Positions 16,056 to 63,765 of a stretch of DNA of 64,000 nt are shown in pieces. The stretch covers positions 179,458 through 243,457 of the forward strand of contig NZ_KB849715.1 in assembly GCF_000368825.1 (NCBI RefSeq), written 5' to 3'. Positions within the stretch are counted from its first letter, which is position 1. Each line of letters begins with the position of its first letter. A model generated the notes under the pieces. That model was not told the origin of the DNA, did no database searches, and worked only from the letters and a program-made list of their open reading frames with translations. Position numbers and translations under genes: made by a program. The stretch comes from Acinetobacter ursingii DSM 16037 = CIP 107286 (GTDB lineage Bacteria; Pseudomonadota; Gammaproteobacteria; Pseudomonadales; Moraxellaceae).

Positions 16056-18659
16056 TTAAAAACGCTGAGAGATACTCAACTTAAAGTCACGTCCAGTACC
16101 TGTCATATATTCTCCCAGATACATTTTGTAGTCACGATTAAACAGGTTATCAATAGAGAAATTCAACTGAGGGCCATTTTCACCGACTGGCTGCCAATCG
16201 ATAAAAATACCGTGCAAAGCATAGCCTTTAGTACGAGGCAATGAAAAACCAGAAGCCCCAATTGAATGATCTGTATTTAAAATACTTCTGGTTTGCGCGT
16301 CTACAAAAATTCCACGCCAGCCCATGGTCAAATCATGTTCAGGAACATTGACACCTAGCGTAGCTGTCGCCTTGCGTGGAGGTATTTGTTCAATCCATGT
16401 TTTTTGATTAAACCACGGATTAACAGGAGAATTATCACGTTGACCGCGCACATAAGAATAAGTTAAACCTGCAAAATAGGTGGGCTGATTATAAAATAGC
16501 TCTGCTTCATAAGCTTTGATGGTGTAATCAGTAATATTTCTGTAAAAACCATGATCATATTGGCCATTACAAACACTGGCATTCGCACTTCCACCCTGTG
16601 CAATAATCTCGGCTTGTGCCTGACAGAAAACTGAACGATTACGAAAAATTTCGTCTGAACCGCGGTTATGATAATAGCTAAGACGGATCTGTAAATGATC
16701 ATCATCTGTCAAAAGCTGATCAAAATTCATTTCATTGCCAAGTCTTATCGCCAACATTTTTTCGGGACGCAAATACAGACTGGTCGCAGATACCGTAGAA
16801 CTTGGACCATCATTATAATATTGTTCATCAACACGTGGCGCACGCCATGTTTTGCTAATATTAGCAAACCACGTGAGGTAATCTGCCTGTTTCCATGCCA
16901 ACGCTAAACGGGGTGACCAGCCTGTATAACTTTTTTCTGAATAATCATGACCTGCTTCAGCCGTGCTATAACGTGGAGCCAGATTGCCATAACCCTGATT
17001 GATAATATTGTCATAACGTAAAGACGGCGTAATCGTGACTGCCCCAATTTGATATTGGTCTTCAACAAATGCGCTATACATTTGCTGATCACCTGCGGGC
17101 ATATAATTCGGTTGATAGAGTCCGTAATTATATTGAGGATTATTCAGATAAGAGCGAACCAGCATCAAAGAGTTTTGCTTCATCTTTTAATATTGTGCCC
17201 CGATTTTTAGCTTATGTGTACCATACGCCGTATCAATATCACTGATATTTAAAAGTTTTAGTGCTGTATTGGTATAGTTCACCCAGCTTTCATCGCCAAG
17301 ATTGGCCGCTGAAAAAGAAACCCCTTCCAAACGTTTATCATGTTGTTTGGTTTTTGAATAAGAAAAATTTGCTTTGAAATTAATATAAGGATTCGCAGCA
17401 GGATTGAACTCATAACCAGCGGAATAGCTTGTATCTTTTTGGTCACGATAGACTAAACGGCGTTTCCACGCTTCGTCATAGCCATACTTTGCAATATCTG
17501 CGGCACTCGGAACAGCATCCTGATCACGCATTGCAGCAAAAGGTTCCCAGCCTGTATGGCTACTTTGCATGGCATTGAAAGAAATCTTTTGGCTTTCATC
17601 TGGACGAATATTCAGTTTTGCTAAATATGTGTCCTGTTCCTGAGCTGAATATAAAAAAGAGGTTCCATCTGGACGCTCTACATTACCGCTATCGCGTTTG
17701 GTATAGTAAAACAGCCCATCCAACAGATTATTTTCAGTTTTTCCATACACTGCACCCGTATAAGTATTTTGTTGGTTATTACTAAATCGCGAATACTTTA
17801 GAAATGCGCCGACATCTTTATTTTGTTTTAATAGATCTTGCGCATCTCTGGTTTCCAGTGTCACCTTTCCGCCAAAACCGCCATTACCAACTTCAACATT
17901 ATGCGGACCTTTATCGACCGTGACCCGTTTTAAAATTTCAGGTTCAATAAAGACTGACCCTTGTCGATATTTATCAAAAGATTTGACCGAATCATCCAGT
18001 GTAATGGGAACATCTTCAACTCCTCCCATACCCAGAATATTAATCGTTTGTCCGCCGGGTCTAGGAGAGCCAGCCGAAGATACTCCTGGCATGGTGTCTA
18101 ATAGTTGTGCAACATTATTGGCCTGATAACGATCAATCGCGGTCTGATTTAAAACGCTTTGCCCAAACTGAACCGTATCTGAATTTTCTGCCTGCGTAGA
18201 AAGGGTTGGCATTTGGTATAACTGATGATTATCCTGATTGAAAATTGAAGATGAATTCAGTTGCCCTTTTTTTATGGCACTTGAAGTCCCCACATTTTTT
18301 TCATCAGACTGTTCATGCTCTAGTTTCTTATCCACCAATAAGTAACCTGCCGATGATTTCATCATCTGAAACGGTGTATGTTCAATCAATCTGGCAAATG
18401 CTTGCTCAACGGTGTAATTGCCTTTTATCGCATTTACTTGGTAACGATTGGTTTTCTTTGCATCCATCAGTAATGAAACATTGGCTTGCAATGCAACGCT
18501 ATTGAGTGCCTGAGTCAGAGAACCACGCTCCACTTGAAAGTACGCAGAACTATTGCTATTTGCAGCGTATATAGGGGCTGAAACGCAACTGACAGAAATT
18601 GCCAGAGAAACGGCCAACGCTATTTTTTGTAGGGAATATTGGGAAGATAAAATGTGCAT
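16056..18659 (-). pseudogene. TonB-dependent heme/siderophore receptor with STN domain, in-frame stop
   Basis: This outer-membrane receptor would be 867 residues. It has a signal peptide (to about residue 36), an STN signalling domain (ALNSVALQANVSLLMDAKK), a plug domain (QLLDTMPGVSSAGSPRPGG) and a 22-strand barrel ending FKLSISQRF. A TAA at 17187-17189 interrupts codon 491. The reading frame then continues without any shift (next codons K-M-K-Q-N) to the natural end. The STN domain and the adjacent FecR/FecI pair indicate substrate-induced cell-surface signalling; heme is likely because heme oxygenase follows. Either a nonsense mutation or a base-call error could explain the stop. Confidence 0.85.
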
Positions 18660-18675
18660 TAAAACGATAGCCCCA

Positions 18676-18695
18676 TATAAATGATAATCATTAAC
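18676..18695 (-). promoter_or_regulatory. Fur-box-like operator upstream of the TonB receptor
   Basis: The sequence aaatgataatcatta (from 18679) matches the core of the Fur consensus gataatgataatcattatc. It lies about 20 bp upstream of the receptor's chosen ATG at 18659, in the position expected of an iron-repressed promoter. Confidence 0.65.
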
Positions 18696-18774
18696 CAAGC
18701 CAATTAGCAAATAATTGCTGTTCTTCCCTATATGACGCACCACCATCCAAAAACACGCAATTTGTCGTTATTTT

Positions 18775-32255: not shown

Positions 32256-32345
32256 GGAAGCGTGGCAGAGCGGTTTAATGCACCGGTCTTGAAAACCGAC
32301 GAGGGTGTGAGTCCTCCGTGAGTTCGAATCTCACCGCTTCCGCCA
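32256..32345 (+). tRNA. tRNA-Ser(UGA)
   Basis: This 90-nt class II tRNA has acceptor stem ggaagcg/cgcttcc, encoded GCCA 3' end, anticodon TGA in cttTGAaaa, a long variable arm with stem gagg/cctc, and T arm gttcgaatc. It differs by one base in the variable loop (t versus c) from the tRNA-Ser at 52100-52189. Confidence 0.97.
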
Positions 32346-48111: not shown

Positions 48112-48270
48112 CTCACCTTTTCCTGGTCAAAGTTTTATCAAAATATCGCATATATCTCAGTATTAAACCAATACTAAGTTGATGTTTATAGATTTTATTT
48201 AATAGGATTATAAAAGAAGAAAGAACGAGAAAATAATGACTCAAATTGAGAATAACAAAATTGGAATAAA

Positions 48271-48303
48271 AAACGGGATCAAACTATATATTTGATCCCG
48301 TTT
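48271..48303 (-). terminator. Original terminator of the tRNA-Ser locus, left of attL
   Basis: The perfect 13-bp stem aaacgggatcaaa / tttgatcccgttt ends in TTTTTATT on the minus strand. It lies just past the displaced tRNA-Ser 3' fragment, where the host tRNA's terminator sat before the element integrated. Confidence 0.75.
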
Positions 48304-48306
48304 AAC

Positions 48307-48369
48307 ATATTTGGCGGAAGCGGTGAGATTCGAACTCACGGAGGACTCACACCCTCGTCGGTTTTCAAG
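48307..48369 (-). repeat. attL: displaced 3' fragment of tRNA-Ser
   Basis: This copy runs from 5 bases outside the tRNA CCA end to the anticodon region (ggttttcaag), then breaks into ttattggg. It carries the variable-loop base found in the other tRNA-Ser gene at 32256 (a at 48349, plus strand), so it is the original host half displaced by integration. Confidence 0.9.
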
Positions 48370-48584
48370 TTATTGGGACTTACACTTTACTAGGCTTTAT
48401 TAACATTTAGTAAGCCATACATTCCTTTACAAAACAATGCCTTGAAGCTATATTTTGTTTTATGTAGCTTGTTTATGCTTTCCCTGTATCGCTTACAAAT
48501 TGCTTACGAGTTACAGTGCAAAAAAGGCAAGCGACTACGCCAATAGCCCTTGCCTGTGGTTATATCCCTACTAGGAAACAACAA

Positions 48585-48644
48585 ATGAATCATACTACAT
48601 TTATCACCAACTACAATGTCGGTGAGGAGTTCTATCATGCCTAA
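48585..48644 (+). CDS. Possible 19-aa leader peptide overlapping the integrase start
   Basis: ATG at 48585 with agga eight bases upstream encodes MNHTTFITNYNVGEEFYHA. Its stop overlaps the integrase ATG at 48637, so the two could be translationally coupled. No homology is claimed. Confidence 0.3.
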   Translation: MNHTTFITNYNVGEEFYHA

Positions 48645-49845
48645 GTTGACTAAGAGCTTCATCGACAAATACCCTGCACCAATCAACAAAGATAAATTTG
48701 AATGGGATACTGAATTAAAAGGTTTCGGTATTCGAGTTACCCCTAAAGGTCGCGTTAGCTTTATTGTGCAAAACCGTGTTAATGGTCGCTCGGAGCGTAT
48801 TACTATCGGGCAGTATGGTGTCTTTGCCCCTGACCAAGCACGTGACATTGCCCGCGAGCATTTACGCACAATGCGCATGGGTACAAGCCCAACAGCGCAG
48901 GCAAAAGCACATGCATTAATGTCTATTACGTTACGCGAAGTCTGCGACTCTTACATTAAAGATAGGTCGCTTAAAGCAAGTTCGCAAAGTGAAATTCGTA
49001 GACATGTGACCACAAGTTTTGAAGCATGGCAGGATACTCCTATTGCAGCCATAAACCGTGAGGATGTGAATAAACGCTACAACCAACTTAAAGAACATGG
49101 TTTACGTGGTAATGCCCCTGCACCTGCCCAAGCTAATCAAGCATTCAGTGTATTACGAGCATTAATTAATTACGCAATGGACGAATATAGAAAGGAAGAT
49201 GGCACACCATTAATCCAAGAGAACCCAGTTAATATTCTTAAAAAGAAAATGGTGAAATTAAAACCTCGTACCAGTCGTATTCCTGATTCTAAGGTAAATA
49301 ATGTTTGGAAATATCTGTGGTCAACAAGGGAAACCGCTTTTAACCGTGAAACTCTAGCAAGCATTGATTTAATCATTTTCTTAATGCTCACAGGCGCACG
49401 ATTAGGCGAAGCTCGTTCTTTAACTTGGGATAGGGTCAATTTAGAGGAAGCATGGTGGCATATACCCGACCCTAAAAACCACAATCCAGTCTATTTACCC
49501 TTATCAATTCAAGCAATAGACTTGCTCAAAGCTAGACCAAGAACAGACGACTCACCTTTTGTTTTTGCTTCATGGTCAAAGTCAGGACACATTATTGACC
49601 CTAGAGATTCATTGAAACGTATGAGTGAAGTTGCTGGAACACCAATTACAGCACATGACCTTAGACGAACGTTTACCACAATAGGAGTGGCACATTGTGG
49701 TATTGATTTAAACAAGGTTGAATTGCTGACAAACCATGTGCCTAAAGGGGTTACAGCAATTCATTATTTAGAAACTACACACTTGCAATATTTACGTCCC
49801 GAAGTTCAGCAAGTAGCTGATTGGATTAATAAAAGTAAATCATAA
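48637..49845 (+). CDS. int: Tyrosine-recombinase integrase
   Basis: This 402-aa integrase has an N-terminal DUF4102/arm-binding region (GFGIRVTPKGRVSFIVQNRV), a SAM-like core-binding domain and a C-terminal catalytic domain. Catalytic residues visible: R255 (TGARLGEARSLTW), H340 and R343 (HDLRRTFTT), H367 (LLTNH) and nucleophile Y377 (IHYLET). I chose the ATG at 48637 for its strong ggtgaggag site; the frame opens at 48616. It is 270 bp from attL and would recombine the tRNA-Ser sites. Confidence 0.95.
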   Translation: MPKLTKSFIDKYPAPINKDKFEWDTELKGFGIRVTPKGRVSFIVQNRVNGRSERITIGQYGVFAPDQARDIAREHLRTMRMGTSPTAQAKAHALMSITLREVCDSYIKDRSLKASSQSEIRRHVTTSFEAWQDTPIAAINREDVNKRYNQLKEHGLRGNAPAPAQANQAFSVLRALINYAMDEYRKEDGTPLIQENPVNILKKKMVKLKPRTSRIPDSKVNNVWKYLWSTRETAFNRETLASIDLIIFLMLTGARLGEARSLTWDRVNLEEAWWHIPDPKNHNPVYLPLSIQAIDLLKARPRTDDSPFVFASWSKSGHIIDPRDSLKRMSEVAGTPITAHDLRRTFTTIGVAHCGIDLNKVELLTNHVPKGVTAIHYLETTHLQYLRPEVQQVADWINKSKS

Positions 49846-49853
49846 AAAATCAT

Positions 49854-49882
49854 TTGTGCATTAACATAAAACATAATATAGT
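49854..49882 (+). promoter_or_regulatory. Promoter for the alpA leader transcript
   Basis: A -35 box ttgtgc (49854-49859), a 17-bp spacer and a -10 box tatagt (49877-49882) just after int would start a transcript near 49889. Its leader contains the folded segments at 49947-50024. Confidence 0.5.
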
Positions 49883-49946
49883 TGTTTTTAACTGCAAACA
49901 CCTCGCTTAATATTCACGTAACATGGGTTACATTATTAAGCTTGTA

Positions 49947-50024
49947 TCTATCATGGGATAGAGGCTTCAAGGTTAATTTAAACTTGAGCTATCTGTCCCT
50001 TTTTTATTGCATGTCAGATAGCTC
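49947..50024 (+). promoter_or_regulatory. Attenuator-like leader with four alternative pairing segments
   Basis: Segment a (tctatc, 49947-49952) pairs with the start of b (gataga, 49957-49962). Segment b (49955-49971, gggatagaggcttcaag) pairs along nearly its full length with c (49983-49999, cttgagctatctgtccc), and six T residues follow at 50000-50005: a textbook intrinsic terminator. Part of c (49986-49995) pairs perfectly over 10 bp with d (cagatagctc, 50015-50024), just before the alpA ribosome-binding site at 50031. Forming a:b or c:d would prevent the b:c terminator. The regulating ligand, RNA or ribosome is unknown. Confidence 0.65.
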
Positions 50025-50045
50025 ATTGCTAAAGGAACTTTTGAC

Positions 50046-50288
50046 ATGACTATTTCAGCAAACAATCATAAAGATTTACTGACGACTAAAGAAGCCGCTT
50101 CATTACTTGGCTTTAAAAAGAACACCCTTGAAATATGGCGTACTAAAGGTAAAGGACCACAATTTATTAAAGTGGGATCAGATACCCAGTCACGTGTCCG
50201 CTATTTACGTTCAACCTTAATGGCATGGCTTGAAGCACAAGCGCATTCGAGTACGTCTTCGTATTCAGTTCAAACCTCCGACAAATAA
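50046..50288 (+). CDS. AlpA-like HTH regulator/excisionase
   Basis: This 80-aa protein has a MerR/AlpA-type winged HTH: LLTTKEAASLLGFKKNTLEIWRTKGKGPQFIKV and a RVRYLRSTLMAWLEAQ tail. In P4-like elements such proteins activate int or act as excisionases. Its ATG has aaagga nine bases upstream. It is preceded by the attenuator-like leader. Confidence 0.85.
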   Translation: MTISANNHKDLLTTKEAASLLGFKKNTLEIWRTKGKGPQFIKVGSDTQSRVRYLRSTLMAWLEAQAHSSTSSYSVQTSDK

Positions 50289-50292
50289 TTAA

Positions 50293-50451
50293 TTTTCTGT
50301 TCTAAACCTTAAACGTATTGCGCTTATTGAAACCTGTGTCAAACACGACTATGTACCTCCTACAGTACCAGTAACGGTTAAAACCATGCTACAGGGGCAA
50401 CCGTGGGTACAATACCCTAACCCTAATTGTGGTCATACCGATAATGGCTAA
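50293..50451 (+). other. Coding-like open frame without a normal start
   Basis: Between the alpA stop and the next ORF a frame stays open for about 52 codons with protein-like composition (TCVKHDYVPPTVPVTVKTML). It ends at a TAA overlapping the following ATG (ATGGCTAA). No ATG, GTG or TTG is available near its beginning; only ATT at 50317 or 50326, or a late ATG. It could be a gene whose start was lost, or be read by an unusual start. Confidence 0.3.
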
Positions 50452-50620
50452 GGTTTTAAAAGACTTTCAAAAGCGTTTAGCTAAAGTCGAAACCCACAGA
50501 AAGAACAAAGCGACTACTATTAAATTAGTAGCCGCTTTTCCACCTATTTTGTCTTATGATGAGTGGGAAGCTATTGCTGTACCACATCAACAACAATTAG
50601 TTGACGATACTAGGAATTAA
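50444..50620 (+). CDS. Small hypothetical protein of the element
   Basis: From the ATG at 50444 this 58-aa basic-then-neutral protein begins MAKVLKDFQKRLAKVETHRK and ends WEAIAVPHQQQLVDDTRN. The N-terminal half is a charged helix. The start overlaps the stop of the upstream open frame. Not recognised; plausible because its frame is continuous to just before the convergent cargo gene. Confidence 0.5.
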   Translation: MAKVLKDFQKRLAKVETHRKNKATTIKLVAAFPPILSYDEWEAIAVPHQQQLVDDTRN

Positions 50621-50641
50621 AAGTTTATCTTTCTTTTGTTT

Positions 50642-52000
50642 TTAAAAAATACATGCATCATCATACTGATCCACCCAATTTTTTAGTAATAAGATTGCTT
50701 TTGTTTCCTGAGGATAATTAACCTCTGCCAATATATTACCATCTCTAGGAAGTAAGATTTCAAAACCAGACTCCATTTCTAAAAGAGGTAAATCTAAATG
50801 TTGAATAAATTTCAAGAAAAAATTAAATCCTGAATCAATATTTTCTGCCCTGCTAATCCTGTCTAAGTTAGAACCAATTGTTTGAGATATTTTTGCGAAA
50901 TAATTTATATCTGAGTGAATAATTAGATTTGCTTTATCTTTAACTAATTTTCTTGCGTCTATGATAATACTTTTACAACTTAAACCACATGAACTTAATA
51001 TCCTATCAATTTCTTGAATTACTTCTTGTTTATTTTCAAATTTTTTCTTTTCCATTAGCTGTAACAAAACATAGAATAAAATTGGTCTTTCTAAAAACTT
51101 AAGACCATTTTTTAATGAAGCATTGAAATAAATATAATCATTTAACTGTTCTGTCGTAAACCCTTCTGAGGGCTTAAATAATTTATCTACAACATTACTA
51201 TCATTAAATAAATCAAAATGTTTTTCTGTAAAGTTCAAACAGATATCTAGTAACACTCTAGCTATATCAAAAAGATCATCTAAATTTTCAATTCTAAAAT
51301 GGTTTGCTATTAGATGAAAACAAGTTGAATATTCTGTTAAATAAATATTATAGATATAATCTAAACTATTTTGTTTGAACCTAGTCGCTAAAAAATTTCT
51401 TTGCGTTTCATCATCTTTAAGTAAACCAACGATATTCCCCATTGAATTAATATATTCATCAATTGTTGCTGAGCATTCAAGCAAACTCACCATAGAGAAA
51501 GGATGTCTAGCTAAAGATTCACCTTGAGCATTAAAATAACGTGCAAATAAAATTGGTCTGTCTGATACATTACCATATGAATCAAAAACTTTACCAATAG
51601 AAGGTATTAAGTCCCATTTTTTACTATCATCATCTTGCCAAAGTTGGTTGTAATAAGAAGGATATCTAATTTTTTTTAGTTCATTTGCAAACTTTTTAAT
51701 TTTATGAAAATGATATTCATCACCATTTTCCTGCTTAAATCTTTGTCTAAGTGCTTGGTCTAAATTATAAAAATACTCTATCCCATAAGTAGTATGGGTC
51801 ATATCATAATAATGTCTATACTCATGAATAGCTGTAGAATAGGTCGTTAGCGACTCTTCAAAAGTCGCTAAGTCTTCTTTATTTCTCAACCTCATTAAGA
51901 AGCTTCTATCCTTAGCTTTTAAGGAAACTGTATAAGTTATAAAACCGAAGCTACCCAAGGCATCTGAGTCCTCAAGAATATAATTTTCATTTAATGCCAT
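50642..52000 (-). CDS. Uncharacterised 452-aa protein with HEXXH zincin motif (element cargo)
   Basis: I do not recognise the family. Residues 55-66 read STAIHEYRHYYD, a zincin-type HEXXH with the two His and the Glu (H59, E60, H63). SLLECSATIDEY (E175 or E182) could supply a third zinc ligand as in gluzincins. The rest is predicted helical, rich in Lys, Ile and Asn, with no signal peptide or membrane segment, so it is probably cytoplasmic. The gene is notably AT-rich against its neighbours, has a strong aggagg site before the ATG, and points toward int from the attR side. As the only sizeable cargo of a minimal element, a defence, toxin or superinfection role is a hypothesis only. Confidence 0.8.
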   Translation of the reverse strand: MALNENYILEDSDALGSFGFITYTVSLKAKDRSFLMRLRNKEDLATFEESLTTYSTAIHEYRHYYDMTHTTYGIEYFYNLDQALRQRFKQENGDEYHFHKIKKFANELKKIRYPSYYNQLWQDDDSKKWDLIPSIGKVFDSYGNVSDRPILFARYFNAQGESLARHPFSMVSLLECSATIDEYINSMGNIVGLLKDDETQRNFLATRFKQNSLDYIYNIYLTEYSTCFHLIANHFRIENLDDLFDIARVLLDICLNFTEKHFDLFNDSNVVDKLFKPSEGFTTEQLNDYIYFNASLKNGLKFLERPILFYVLLQLMEKKKFENKQEVIQEIDRILSSCGLSCKSIIIDARKLVKDKANLIIHSDINYFAKISQTIGSNLDRISRAENIDSGFNFFLKFIQHLDLPLLEMESGFEILLPRDGNILAEVNYPQETKAILLLKNWVDQYDDACIF

Positions 52001-52066
52001 TTACCCCTCCTAATTATCTTTATTGCTTACTACAGGCTTACGTTGCATAAACCCCAAAAACAACAA

Positions 52067-52085
52067 AGCCCCGATATTCGGGGCT
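52067..52085 (-). terminator. Element-supplied tRNA-Ser terminator
   Basis: The stem agccccga (52067-52074) / tcggggct (52078-52085) lies just past the CCA end of the reconstituted tRNA-Ser, with a T-rich tail on the minus strand. It replaces the host terminator now left of attL. Confidence 0.65.
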
Positions 52086-52094
52086 AAGTCATTG

Positions 52095-52157
52095 ATATTT
52101 GGCGGAAGCGGTGAGATTCGAACTCACGGAGGACTCGCACCCTCGTCGGTTTTCAAG
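52095..52157 (-). repeat. attR: direct repeat within the intact tRNA-Ser
   Basis: This is the matching copy of the 63-bp repeat at 48307-48369, identical except at 52137 (g instead of a). It covers the tRNA 3' half from the anticodon loop through CCA plus five bases. Confidence 0.9.
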
Positions 52158-52189
52158 ACCGGTGCATTAAACCGCTCTGCCACGCTTCC
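52100..52189 (-). tRNA. tRNA-Ser(UGA), second copy, reconstituted by the integrated element
   Basis: This 90-nt class II tRNA has the same anticodon TGA and stems as the copy at 32256. It differs at one variable-loop base (tgcgag instead of tgtgag). Its 5' part (52158-52189) is host sequence; the 3' part lies in attR and was supplied by the element. It remains a complete tRNA. Confidence 0.95.
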
Positions 52190-60738: not shown

Positions 60739-61810
60739 GACTTATCCCTTATATCCCTATCCCTACTTTTTAAATCGTCTTAAACCTACAAGTCCCAATA
60801 AGGCGATTAACATTCCATAACCAAAGCTACCACCACCCGTTTTTACTTTTTTACTTTCAAAATCATTCGGTGGATCTTGTACAATTTTTCCAGGAATATC
60901 GATATAGCGATTTCCAATAGAATCACTGAATCGAGTAATCGTGGTCATAACGCGAAGTTTAAACTCATCAGAACCATGCCAGTTTCCATTTGGTACATAA
61001 GTCACATTACCTTCCTGATCGAGTGTTAATGTACCTTTAGATGGCGTGTTGGTTTGCACGATTTGCAAACAACCTGCCTGCCATGCTTTACCGTCTTCTC
61101 GTTTGCCCAATAAGCTTTCACATTCACTGGCAGGAAGTAGTTCCCCATCGGCTAACTGATCCGCAATCGAAAACTTCGCAGTTTCACCATACAAAATATC
61201 TTGGCCTACAGGTGAAATAGAATCTGCATCAATGACCAATTCAATCGCCCCAATGTCACAAAGCTCTTTCGTGCTACGTGTTCTGCCACGCTGATCGACC
61301 GATTCGCAACTGGAAAGACTGGTAATATTAGTCCCATCACTGAGGACACGACCTCGATTCACAATCAGCGAATCACTTAAAGTTTGATAAGACATCAAAA
61401 GACGGGGTTTGAAGAATCCCAGAAACTGCTTTTCAGGCAAGTAATATGGACAAAGCAAACCTTCTGCTGGAGCAGCATTACATTTGCCTTCTAACTCACC
61501 CGCCAATAAGGTATTACTGCCTATCTCGATATTTGGATCAGTCGAATTGCCACTACCGCAATCAGAAGTCTTGGTCAGATTGTTAATGAATTGGGTTTTA
61601 TCGCCATCTGCAAATACACAGTTTTTTGAACCATTTTCAGAAATGATGCTATTAGACACATAAGCATCACCTTTTGGTGCTTGAAGGTAGAAACCTGCGT
61701 TATTTCGAATCATGGTGATATTATTAATAATCATGCCATCACGTACATTGGTGATATAGCCCGTATTATTAAAAATCGTACTGTTCTTTAAACCACGCAG
61801 ATTCAAATCC

Positions 61811-62854
61811 CAAGTGCAACACATTTGTAGTCAGTTGAAAAAGTTAGGTGTATTCATAGAATCATTAGACTTTTTCAACTCGCAATTGGAAAGCACACAA
61901 TGAAGAAATACACCCAACTTTCTCAAGATGAAAGATACGAAATTTATGCTACGTTGAAAAGTAAAGGCTCAATCGCCTCCCTTGTTCGGGAGTTAGGACG
62001 TTCACGATCAACCATCTACCGTGAATTAAAAAGAAATACTGGGCAACGTGGATATAGAGCTCAACAGGCAGCTAAATTTGCAAGTCAAAGACGGTACCGT
62101 CCTTCATCATCAATGACAGCATTTGCCTTCGCTTATATTGATTATTTGATTGGTTTGGACTGGTCACCAGAACAAATTTCAGGTGCTTTAACACAACGCG
62201 GTTGGCTGGATGTACCTTCACATGAGTGGATTTACCAGTACATTTATCAAGATAAATCAAAAGGCGGTAAACTCCATCTACACTTAAGGCATCAGAAGAA
62301 ATATCGAAAACGCGGTTACAAAAACACGGATCGTAGGGGTCAAATCATTGATAAAACAAGTATTCACTGCCGAGACCAGGTCATTGATCAACGACAACGT
62401 TTAGGAGATTTCGAAGGTGACACGGTGATTGGTAAACATCATAAAGGTGCTTTATTAACCCTTGTTGATCGAAAGAGCCTGTATGTACATATTGTTCATT
62501 TAGGATCAACGAGAGCATCCTCTCAAACGATTACTTGTGCGTTAGATCGTTTACGAATGAGCCATGCTTATAGTGTGACATTTGATAATGGTAAAGAATT
62601 TTCCGAACACAAAAGAATTACCGATGCTGGCATAGAGACGTATTTTGCTGATCCTTACAAGTCTATTCAGCGAGCTAGAAATGAAAATACGAATGGTTTA
62701 ATCCGTCAATATCTGCCAAAATCATCATCGTTTGATGGCGTGTCAAACGAACAAATAGAGCAGATAGAATTTGCACTCAACCATCGTCCTAGAAAAACAC
62801 TAGGTTGGTATACACCGAGTGAAGTTATGGCTGGTTTTTATACTGTTGCACTTG
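61811..62854 (+). mobile_element. IS30-family insertion sequence in the rhombotarget-like gene
   Basis: The terminal inverted repeat is caagtgcaac (61811-61820) / gttgcacttg (62845-62854). cc bases flank both sides and may be a 2-bp target duplication. A 12-bp stem at 61833-61844/61869-61880 lies ahead of the transposase gene and may block read-in. It is similar to Acinetobacter IS30 elements such as ISAba125 or IS18, though shorter than I recall for ISAba125; the exact name needs ISfinder. The target is the surface-protein gene. Confidence 0.85.
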
Positions 62855-62862
62855 CCGCTTGA
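61900..62862 (+). CDS. IS30-family transposase
   Basis: This 320-aa DDE transposase has the IS30 N-terminal HTH (LVRELGRSRSTIYRELKRN), DFEGDTVIGKHHKG with the first Asp, VTFDNGKEFSEH with the second Asp, and the C-terminal Glu in RARNENTNGLIRQYLPK. Its stop codon (tga at 62860-62862) lies eight bases beyond the element end, in host DNA, so the last two or three residues depend on the insertion site. Confidence 0.92.
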   Translation: MKKYTQLSQDERYEIYATLKSKGSIASLVRELGRSRSTIYRELKRNTGQRGYRAQQAAKFASQRRYRPSSSMTAFAFAYIDYLIGLDWSPEQISGALTQRGWLDVPSHEWIYQYIYQDKSKGGKLHLHLRHQKKYRKRGYKNTDRRGQIIDKTSIHCRDQVIDQRQRLGDFEGDTVIGKHHKGALLTLVDRKSLYVHIVHLGSTRASSQTITCALDRLRMSHAYSVTFDNGKEFSEHKRITDAGIETYFADPYKSIQRARNENTNGLIRQYLPKSSSFDGVSNEQIEQIEFALNHRPRKTLGWYTPSEVMAGFYTVALAA

Positions 62863-63765
62863 ATCCGCCCCATATAAACGAGAGCTGGCATTACCACTGG
62901 TTGAGTCATCATTAAATGCGATAGCAGAATATAACAATGTCGATTGATCTAAACCTGTTGCCTTGTTGTCACGCAGAACAGTCTGATAAAGATGAAACCT
63001 TGGTAATTCACTATAAATGACTGCGCCTTGCGAAGCTGTATTATTCTGGAAAATAACATTTTGGGCACTAACGTAGCCTGCACTTTTGTCAGTAGAGACA
63101 CCTTCGTTATAAATCGCGCCACCATTGACCGTGGCATGTCCATTGATCAATTTGACATATTGCAAACCCAAAGTCTCATGGTTGAAAATTAATCCACCAT
63201 TATTAATAGGACTATTTGGATTGCCTTCCAGATTGACCTCAATCAATGAAACGCTATATTGGGCATTTTCACTATTGTCATCATATATATAGAATATACG
63301 GTCATTGCCGACCATTTTAATCGTGGCATTATTTAAACCATATTGGTTCACCGACACTGGTGTCATACGTTGTTTTAAGCTGTAACGCTTTCTGAATTTT
63401 AATCTGGCTATTTAATTCATAGGTTTTTTGTTTTTCCAGCAATACAACAGCGGTAGAGTCTTTTCCCCCACATCCATTATAGCCTGCTTCTGGCATTCCC
63501 TGATTGATATACTCAATTGCTTCGCGCAAAGAACAGAGATTATCGTTCTTAACTTCGTCTGCTGTTGTATTGACTATGATTTCGCCAGCACTATATGCAT
63601 GACCAGCGACAAACAACAGCCCAACGCCTATACCCCGCTTGAGCATACCTTTCTCCTTCATTTCCATTTTCATTATTTTTGTAAAGTCGCCACGTCCTAG
63701 CAACTTTTCGTTCAATTTGCGTACTTTCGCATAGCTTGAGTAATTACTCAAGATTTTTCACATGA

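Follow-up and report, generated by a model that had tools for sequence, protein, structure and literature searches.

A 64,000-nucleotide stretch of the Acinetobacter ursingii DSM 16037 = CIP 107286 genome (contig NZ_KB849715.1, positions 179,458 to 243,457), referred to here as the window, carries a small element integrated at a tRNA-Ser gene, the features of which are collected in Table 1 in window coordinates. An earlier note, made from the letters alone, described a minimal integrative element bounded by a direct repeat, with int, an AlpA-like gene and one large unrecognised gene that might be a defence or toxin gene, and without genes for replication, packaging or transfer. The gene content given there was borne out: int and alpA were identified by family matches, while the 452-aa product of the large gene, hereafter the cargo, had no Pfam, NCBIfam or PADLOC match above cut-off and matched no solved structure. 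Of the four element proteins (Int, AlpA, orf63 and cargo), none was recognised as serving replication, packaging or transfer, orf63 giving a single weak match to a terminase-small-subunit PHROG (phrog_5334, E 0.012). The GC content is 28.2% in the cargo gene and 40.9% in int.

Table 1. Features of the integrated element and its borders (aa, amino acids; att, attachment site; ORF, open reading frame; HTH, helix-turn-helix)
Feature	Window positions	Strand	Basis or remark
Displaced host tRNA-type terminator	48262..48306		Left flank, outside the element; like the hairpin directly before att and tRNA-Ser in G038 (L064)
tRNA-distal att copy, 63 bp, tRNA-Ser 3' fragment	48307..48369		Repeat and tRNA search
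int, tyrosine recombinase, 409 aa	48616..49845	+	Phage_integrase PF00589 1.5e-12; Arm-DNA-bind_3 PF13356 1.6e-12; phrog_1
alpA/excisionase-type HTH regulator, 80 aa	50046..50288	+	HTH_17 PF12728 2.2e-10; phrog_66
Deletion junction, ~4.1 kb of relatives absent	50345..50347		Alignment of window with L055
ORF106 3' stub, 5' part deleted	50346..50451	+	Aligned with L055 11391-11496
orf63, 63 aa, kept in L055 and L056	50429..50620	+	Weak phrog_5334 match
Cargo, predicted zinc metalloprotease, 452 aa	50642..52000	-	HEYRHYYD, E175-x-x-A, C450
Conserved element end adjoining att	52011..52094 (84 bp)		Common to L055 and L056 despite different cargo
tRNA-proximal att copy, completes the tRNA gene	52095..52157		Repeat and tRNA search
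tRNA-Ser(UGA), integration target, intact	52100..52189	-	ARAGORN; 3' part is the right repeat copy

The two copies of the 63-bp repeat lie 3,788 bp apart and differ by a single mismatch at repeat position 43 (A/G). They are real att sites and the boundaries of the element, as had been proposed: the repeat coincides with the tRNA-Ser gene, and the empty site sought in other genomes was found in a relative, G038, where a single att copy, continuing into the remainder of the tRNA-Ser gene, follows immediately on the left-flank hairpin. Eleven stretches were fetched for this comparison, ten with one att copy and one (L073) with none; G038 alone is put forward as a matched empty site, since its left flank matches as well. 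The possibility that the repeat arose by chance was rejected, since it is tRNA sequence and an empty site exists elsewhere. ARAGORN finds just two tRNAs in the window, and the left copy is thus a tRNA fragment and no gene. Repeat position 43 is A in every printed copy, relatives included (the tRNA-proximal copy of the relative L056, introduced below, was too diverged to print), and G in the tRNA-proximal copy of the window (52137); this G may have been brought by the element or may have arisen by later mutation. Being tRNA sequence, the 63 bp recur, in a form identical to the tRNA-distal copy, in a second tRNA-Ser(UGA) gene of the window (32256-32345). In another Acinetobacter genome, G117, a cargo remnant lies beside a tRNA-Ser gene whose 5' flank resembles that second copy, and therefore both tRNA genes may be integration targets.

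Backbones closely related to that of the window element occur in two congeneric genomes (L055 in G030, L056 in G078) and on one IMG/VR contig (L081). Measured from repeat to repeat, L055 spans 8,062 bp and L056 8,537 bp, against 3,851 bp in the window. Window positions 48307-50346 match L055 over 2,041 bp at 98.4% (L055 5238-7278), and after a jump of ~4.1 kb the match resumes for 275 bp at 97.5% (L055 11391-11665); the pattern with L056 is alike (97.8% and 97.5%). At the joint, at most 1-2 bases are in common, as judged by reading. The missing segment, between alpA and ORF106, comprises a predicted primase/helicase gene, ORF246, a DUF5681 gene and most of ORF106. The L055 primase/helicase (655 aa) matches a PHROG DNA primase (6.5e-66) and AAA_25 (3.8e-35), and its L056 homologue is 86% identical. 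Since L055, L056 and L081 continue alike past the left breakpoint of the window, the change is read as a loss in the window lineage; for the same reason position 50346 was rejected as a conserved module boundary. By these alignments the window element is established as an internal-deletion derivative of an ~8-kb element, and it is accordingly not minimal by origin. The int and alpA reading frames are intact; Int is 98-99% identical in G030, G078 and L081, and AlpA shows no amino-acid change relative to L055, L056 or L081. Because Int, AlpA and the att sites look intact, excision is predicted. On L081, int and alpA are as in the window and are followed by a DUF3987 gene (primase type); phage-tail-like genes on the other strand come directly after it (contig positions 2011-12547 for the whole arrangement), and with these tail genes named by reading, L081 is read as a satellite beside or fused to a prophage.

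From orf63 to the tRNA-side end the window element, L055 and L056 carry different genes. L055 encodes a 306-aa phrog_8752 protein at this place, and L056 a 119-aa DUF2513 protein together with a 327-aa phrog_25719 protein; in all three elements the main cargo genes are oriented against int. Since three near-identical backbones differ here, the 452-aa gene is swappable cargo, a feature also of PICI and PICMI phage satellites (see below). L055 and L056 have a further common stretch next to att, holding a 153-aa ORF in L056, of which the window keeps the last part only. The phrog_25719 protein (L056 6757-7737) has a weak HslV-type peptidase match (E 0.049) and is possibly another proteolytic cargo. 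The three elements present a natural comparison: near-identical 8-kb backbones that differ in their cargo at a single place, and a copy that keeps its cargo without the replication gene. Given that related elements hold different genes at one spot, elements of this sort may yield bacterial immune proteins not yet known, and in Acinetobacter the cargo position may act as a trap for such genes.

Of 175 genomes searched in the genus, 160 gave an integrase relative of some kind, three (G000, G030 and G078) a near-identical integrase (98-100%) and three the cargo protein, each of these counts of three including the window's own genome. With the empty site in G038, these counts indicate that the element is not fixed in these chromosomes, which the earlier note had named as a point to be checked. 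Strong matches to the L055 primase among the 175 genomes were confined to G030 and G078, with four weak others, and viral contigs gave no match to it. Searches of the phage and Escherichia coli collections returned no match to the cargo or to its relative at locus L018, and the plasmid collection gave distant matches alone for both; when the complete L055 element was compared with plasmids and phages, matches covered 1-2% of the query, at the att/tRNA ends. The listings of a literature search, conducted largely without subscription journals, held nothing pointing to the element or its cargo; one listed paper, on an A. baumannii strain (PMC7392541), contains the terms tRNA-Ser and integrase.

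The earlier suggestion of a satellite or decayed island gains indirect support from the int-alpA-primase-cargo-att layout of the complete relatives, from the deletion, and from these relatives having no recognised structural genes; satellite ancestry of the window element is likely. Three known groups of islands invite comparison. The phage-inducible chromosomal minimalist island (PICMI) model of the Vibrionaceae needs int, AlpA, a DUF3987-type primase and a fis target; defence systems are among the cargo lying from prim to fis, and transfer depends on int, alpA and prim, excision on AlpA and int (PMC10803314). The window element is alike in int, AlpA (PF12728 being among the PICMI-model AlpA profiles), small size and the lack of recognised capsid genes, and its complete relatives are alike in having a primase, and cargo placed past the replication gene towards the target-side end (PMC10803314). 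It differs in its site, tRNA-Ser(UGA) rather than fis, in its Acinetobacter host, and in having only int and AlpA of the int, AlpA and DUF3987/DUF5906 primase set; moreover, the L055 and L056 primases are Prim-Pol/AAA_25-like, only L081 having DUF3987, and the ORF lists show no gene overlapping the int end (PMC10803314). As primase and site both depart from the model, the window element was not filed as a PICMI.

The Gram-negative phage-inducible chromosomal islands (PICIs) of the EcCICFT073 type likewise have int, AlpA and a specific att site, all present in the window, and a primase/replication module with accessory genes at the far end, as in the complete relatives (PMC6092414). The window element differs in being without a replication module, whereas L055 has one by family match and L056 a homologue; no terS was identified, cos not having been sought. 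Some, not all, PICIs carry terS (PMC6092414); candidates here are the DUF5681 gene of L055 and, by its weak match, orf63. The Pseudomonas tmRNA IntY/AlpA islands (I55 and relatives) resemble the element in having a tyrosine integrase, AlpA and direct repeats beside an RNA gene, in being without genes for autonomous transfer, and in their defence cargo, predicted in the case of the element; they differ in an ~18-kb shared region, alpA at the 3' end and a tmRNA target (PMC12595487). By analogy, the window element is judged to work like a PICI/PICMI-type island that lost its replication gene. The complete relatives would be helper-dependent satellites of this type: upon infection by a helper phage, AlpA and Int would excise the island, after which the primase would replicate it and the phage would package it. 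The window copy probably could still be excised and would not replicate by itself, and would therefore be inherited mostly with the chromosome, as a carrier of cargo.

The cargo is predicted to be a zinc metalloprotease. Its family has no name in the libraries used and is seen in three phyla; conserved in it are an HExxHxxD motif, a helix with a glutamate further downstream and a cysteine close to the C-terminus. Residues H59, E60, H63, D66, E175, E182, E223 and H229 are invariant in 24 aligned family sequences, so that residues of catalytic type are kept at ~25% identity within the family. HExxH is present in all 24 and in 33 of the 34 members listed, the exception being a 283-aa fragment without the N-terminal part, and 32 of these 34 have a cysteine among the last five residues. 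E175 sits on a helix (170-193) of the structure model and is the candidate third zinc ligand. It is unlikely that the HExxH site is non-proteolytic, with the cargo some other metalloenzyme or a metal-dependent partner of NACHT or nuclease systems, because HExxH followed further on by an E-x-x-A helix is the pattern of gluzincins. The dipeptidyl peptidase III (DPP III, M49) of Caldithrix abyssi (PDB 6eom) speaks in the same direction, having HEISH and EECKAD (PMC5805324). The cargo differs from that enzyme in its H63-E175 spacing of 112 residues versus 29 or 59 (the source prints the glutamate as E412 and E442), in its smaller size and in its C-terminal cysteine (PMC5805324). A relationship to M49 found no support in an hhalign comparison of the cargo family with an alignment of only four M49 sequences (probability 0.4%), and Peptidase_M49 (PF03571) was not among the families listed for 24 cargo family members.

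The genes beside distant cargo relatives were surveyed at 16 non-Acinetobacter loci (L003, L006-L016, L018, L082-L084), the neighbours being scanned in part, by Pfam, PADLOC or record annotation. Locus L017 was left out, as only query residues 13-86 were matched there, and the Acinetobacter loci L004 and L005, being the same places as G117 and G154, were not counted among the 16. A NACHT, nuclease, restriction or Juk/NERD gene stands within two genes of the cargo relative at seven of the 16 loci, or nine when DUF2971 is counted: a NACHT gene with an Mrr-like part just under cut-off (L003, where the cargo relative itself had no PADLOC match at E 0.01), Mrr (L008), NACHT-type and HNH-type effector models (L010, with Pfam NACHT under cut-off and a strong NACHT C-terminal domain, 6.7e-30), a DpnII/MboI-type restriction endonuclease (L011), a type II methyltransferase (L013), JukA and NERD-UvrD with AbiJ further on (L083), an annotated restriction-subunit fragment (L084), and DUF2971 (L015 and L016, the former listed by PADLOC as candidate PDC-S31). 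No defence-type or DUF2971 neighbour was noted among the genes looked at for L006, L007, L009, L012, L014, L018 and L082, the close neighbours of L082 being unnamed and the one scanned giving no PADLOC match. As a control, one rule-picked ORF ~6 kb away was taken per locus, and ten were used of the 12 loci that gave one; L013 was not included, the gene picked by the rule there being a restriction-modification gene. None of the ten had a defence-type domain, one being a type VI secretion system phospholipase and one having an integrase domain. Locus L083, on a Sphingomonas plasmid, is a dense defence region in which the cargo relative stands among JukA, NERD-UvrD, AbiJ and a tyrosine recombinase. 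These neighbours support, though they do not prove, a defence role of the cargo family. With the family unnamed, present in three phyla and at several loci near NACHT, nuclease, Juk or NERD genes, that role is testable with one gene and one point mutant.

Taken together, the locus is best read as an integrated, internally deleted tRNA-Ser element with complete relatives that have the build of phage satellites; its cargo, a predicted zinc metalloprotease, likely acts in anti-phage defence; we hold this reading with about even confidence, the defence role being a best guess. The cargo would be a latent intracellular protease, switched on during phage infection, that cuts a phage or host protein and so ends the infection; in distant relatives it may be linked to a partner of NACHT or nuclease type, while in the window element the gene stands alone. 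The earlier proposal of a defence or toxin gene thus stands indirectly, through the variable cargo position and the defence-type neighbours of distant relatives; a match to known defence models did not materialise.

A number of observations weigh against this reading. The cargo has no match to the PADLOC 2.0.0 defence models (best E 0.05) and no protease family above cut-off; its weak match is to phrog_33665 of unknown function (E 0.0064), and Peptidase_M30 was matched in one of 24 family members at E 0.045. At nine of the 16 distant loci the genes inspected include no strict defence neighbour, and the 16 loci are not all independent, three being Pseudomonas-type. The control is weak: seven of its ten ORFs matched no Pfam family and are possibly not genes, the E-value limit was stricter and PADLOC was not run, and with L013 counted the result becomes 1/11. 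Neither a helper phage nor a packaging signal nor a certain terminase gene was found, with cos left outside the search. The close cargo copies in two other Acinetobacter genomes are both broken, that of G117 by an insert with stops and unread bases, that of G154 by a frame break and a split across two contig ends; the foreign ends resemble insertion sequences by reading, and the near-identical integrase was not found in either genome. Between the window cargo and the broken copies the few nucleotide differences are mostly non-synonymous (3/3, 3/3 and 1/2), and recent purifying selection is therefore not shown.

The broken copies, their missing integrase and these differences, like the 4.1-kb deletion, would suit a decayed genomic island, a satellite dead by deletion whose cargo is a neutral passenger without present defence role. 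We regard this as a real but somewhat unlikely alternative, for the window cargo remains an intact 452-aa frame, residues of catalytic type persist across the divergent family, and the int nucleotide differences from G030, G078 and L081 are mostly synonymous (16/6, 29/8 and 29/9). Broken copies would also fit a costly protein, and a single gene at the island end would fit a toxin-like protease that is not anti-phage and belongs to an addiction or competition system by which the element is stabilised; this is improbable, as no partner gene common to the loci was noticed, the listed neighbours differing, and no secretion signal was recognised by reading alone, without a predictor. An elaboration of the defence reading, which we consider doubtful, is that the cargo founds a new family of zinc proteases with an immune role, which swapping on phage satellites has spread and a C-terminal cysteine switch holds latent; the cysteine would cap the zinc of HExxH until released by a phage trigger or, in other bacteria, by a NACHT or nuclease partner.

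Two further observations were made in the window, both by reading. At 60763-63751, an IS30-like transposase ORF (61900-62862) lies among fragments of a seemingly split CSLREA-type surface protein gene, and at 16056-18746 a TonB-dependent receptor-like gene is split into two consecutive ORFs.

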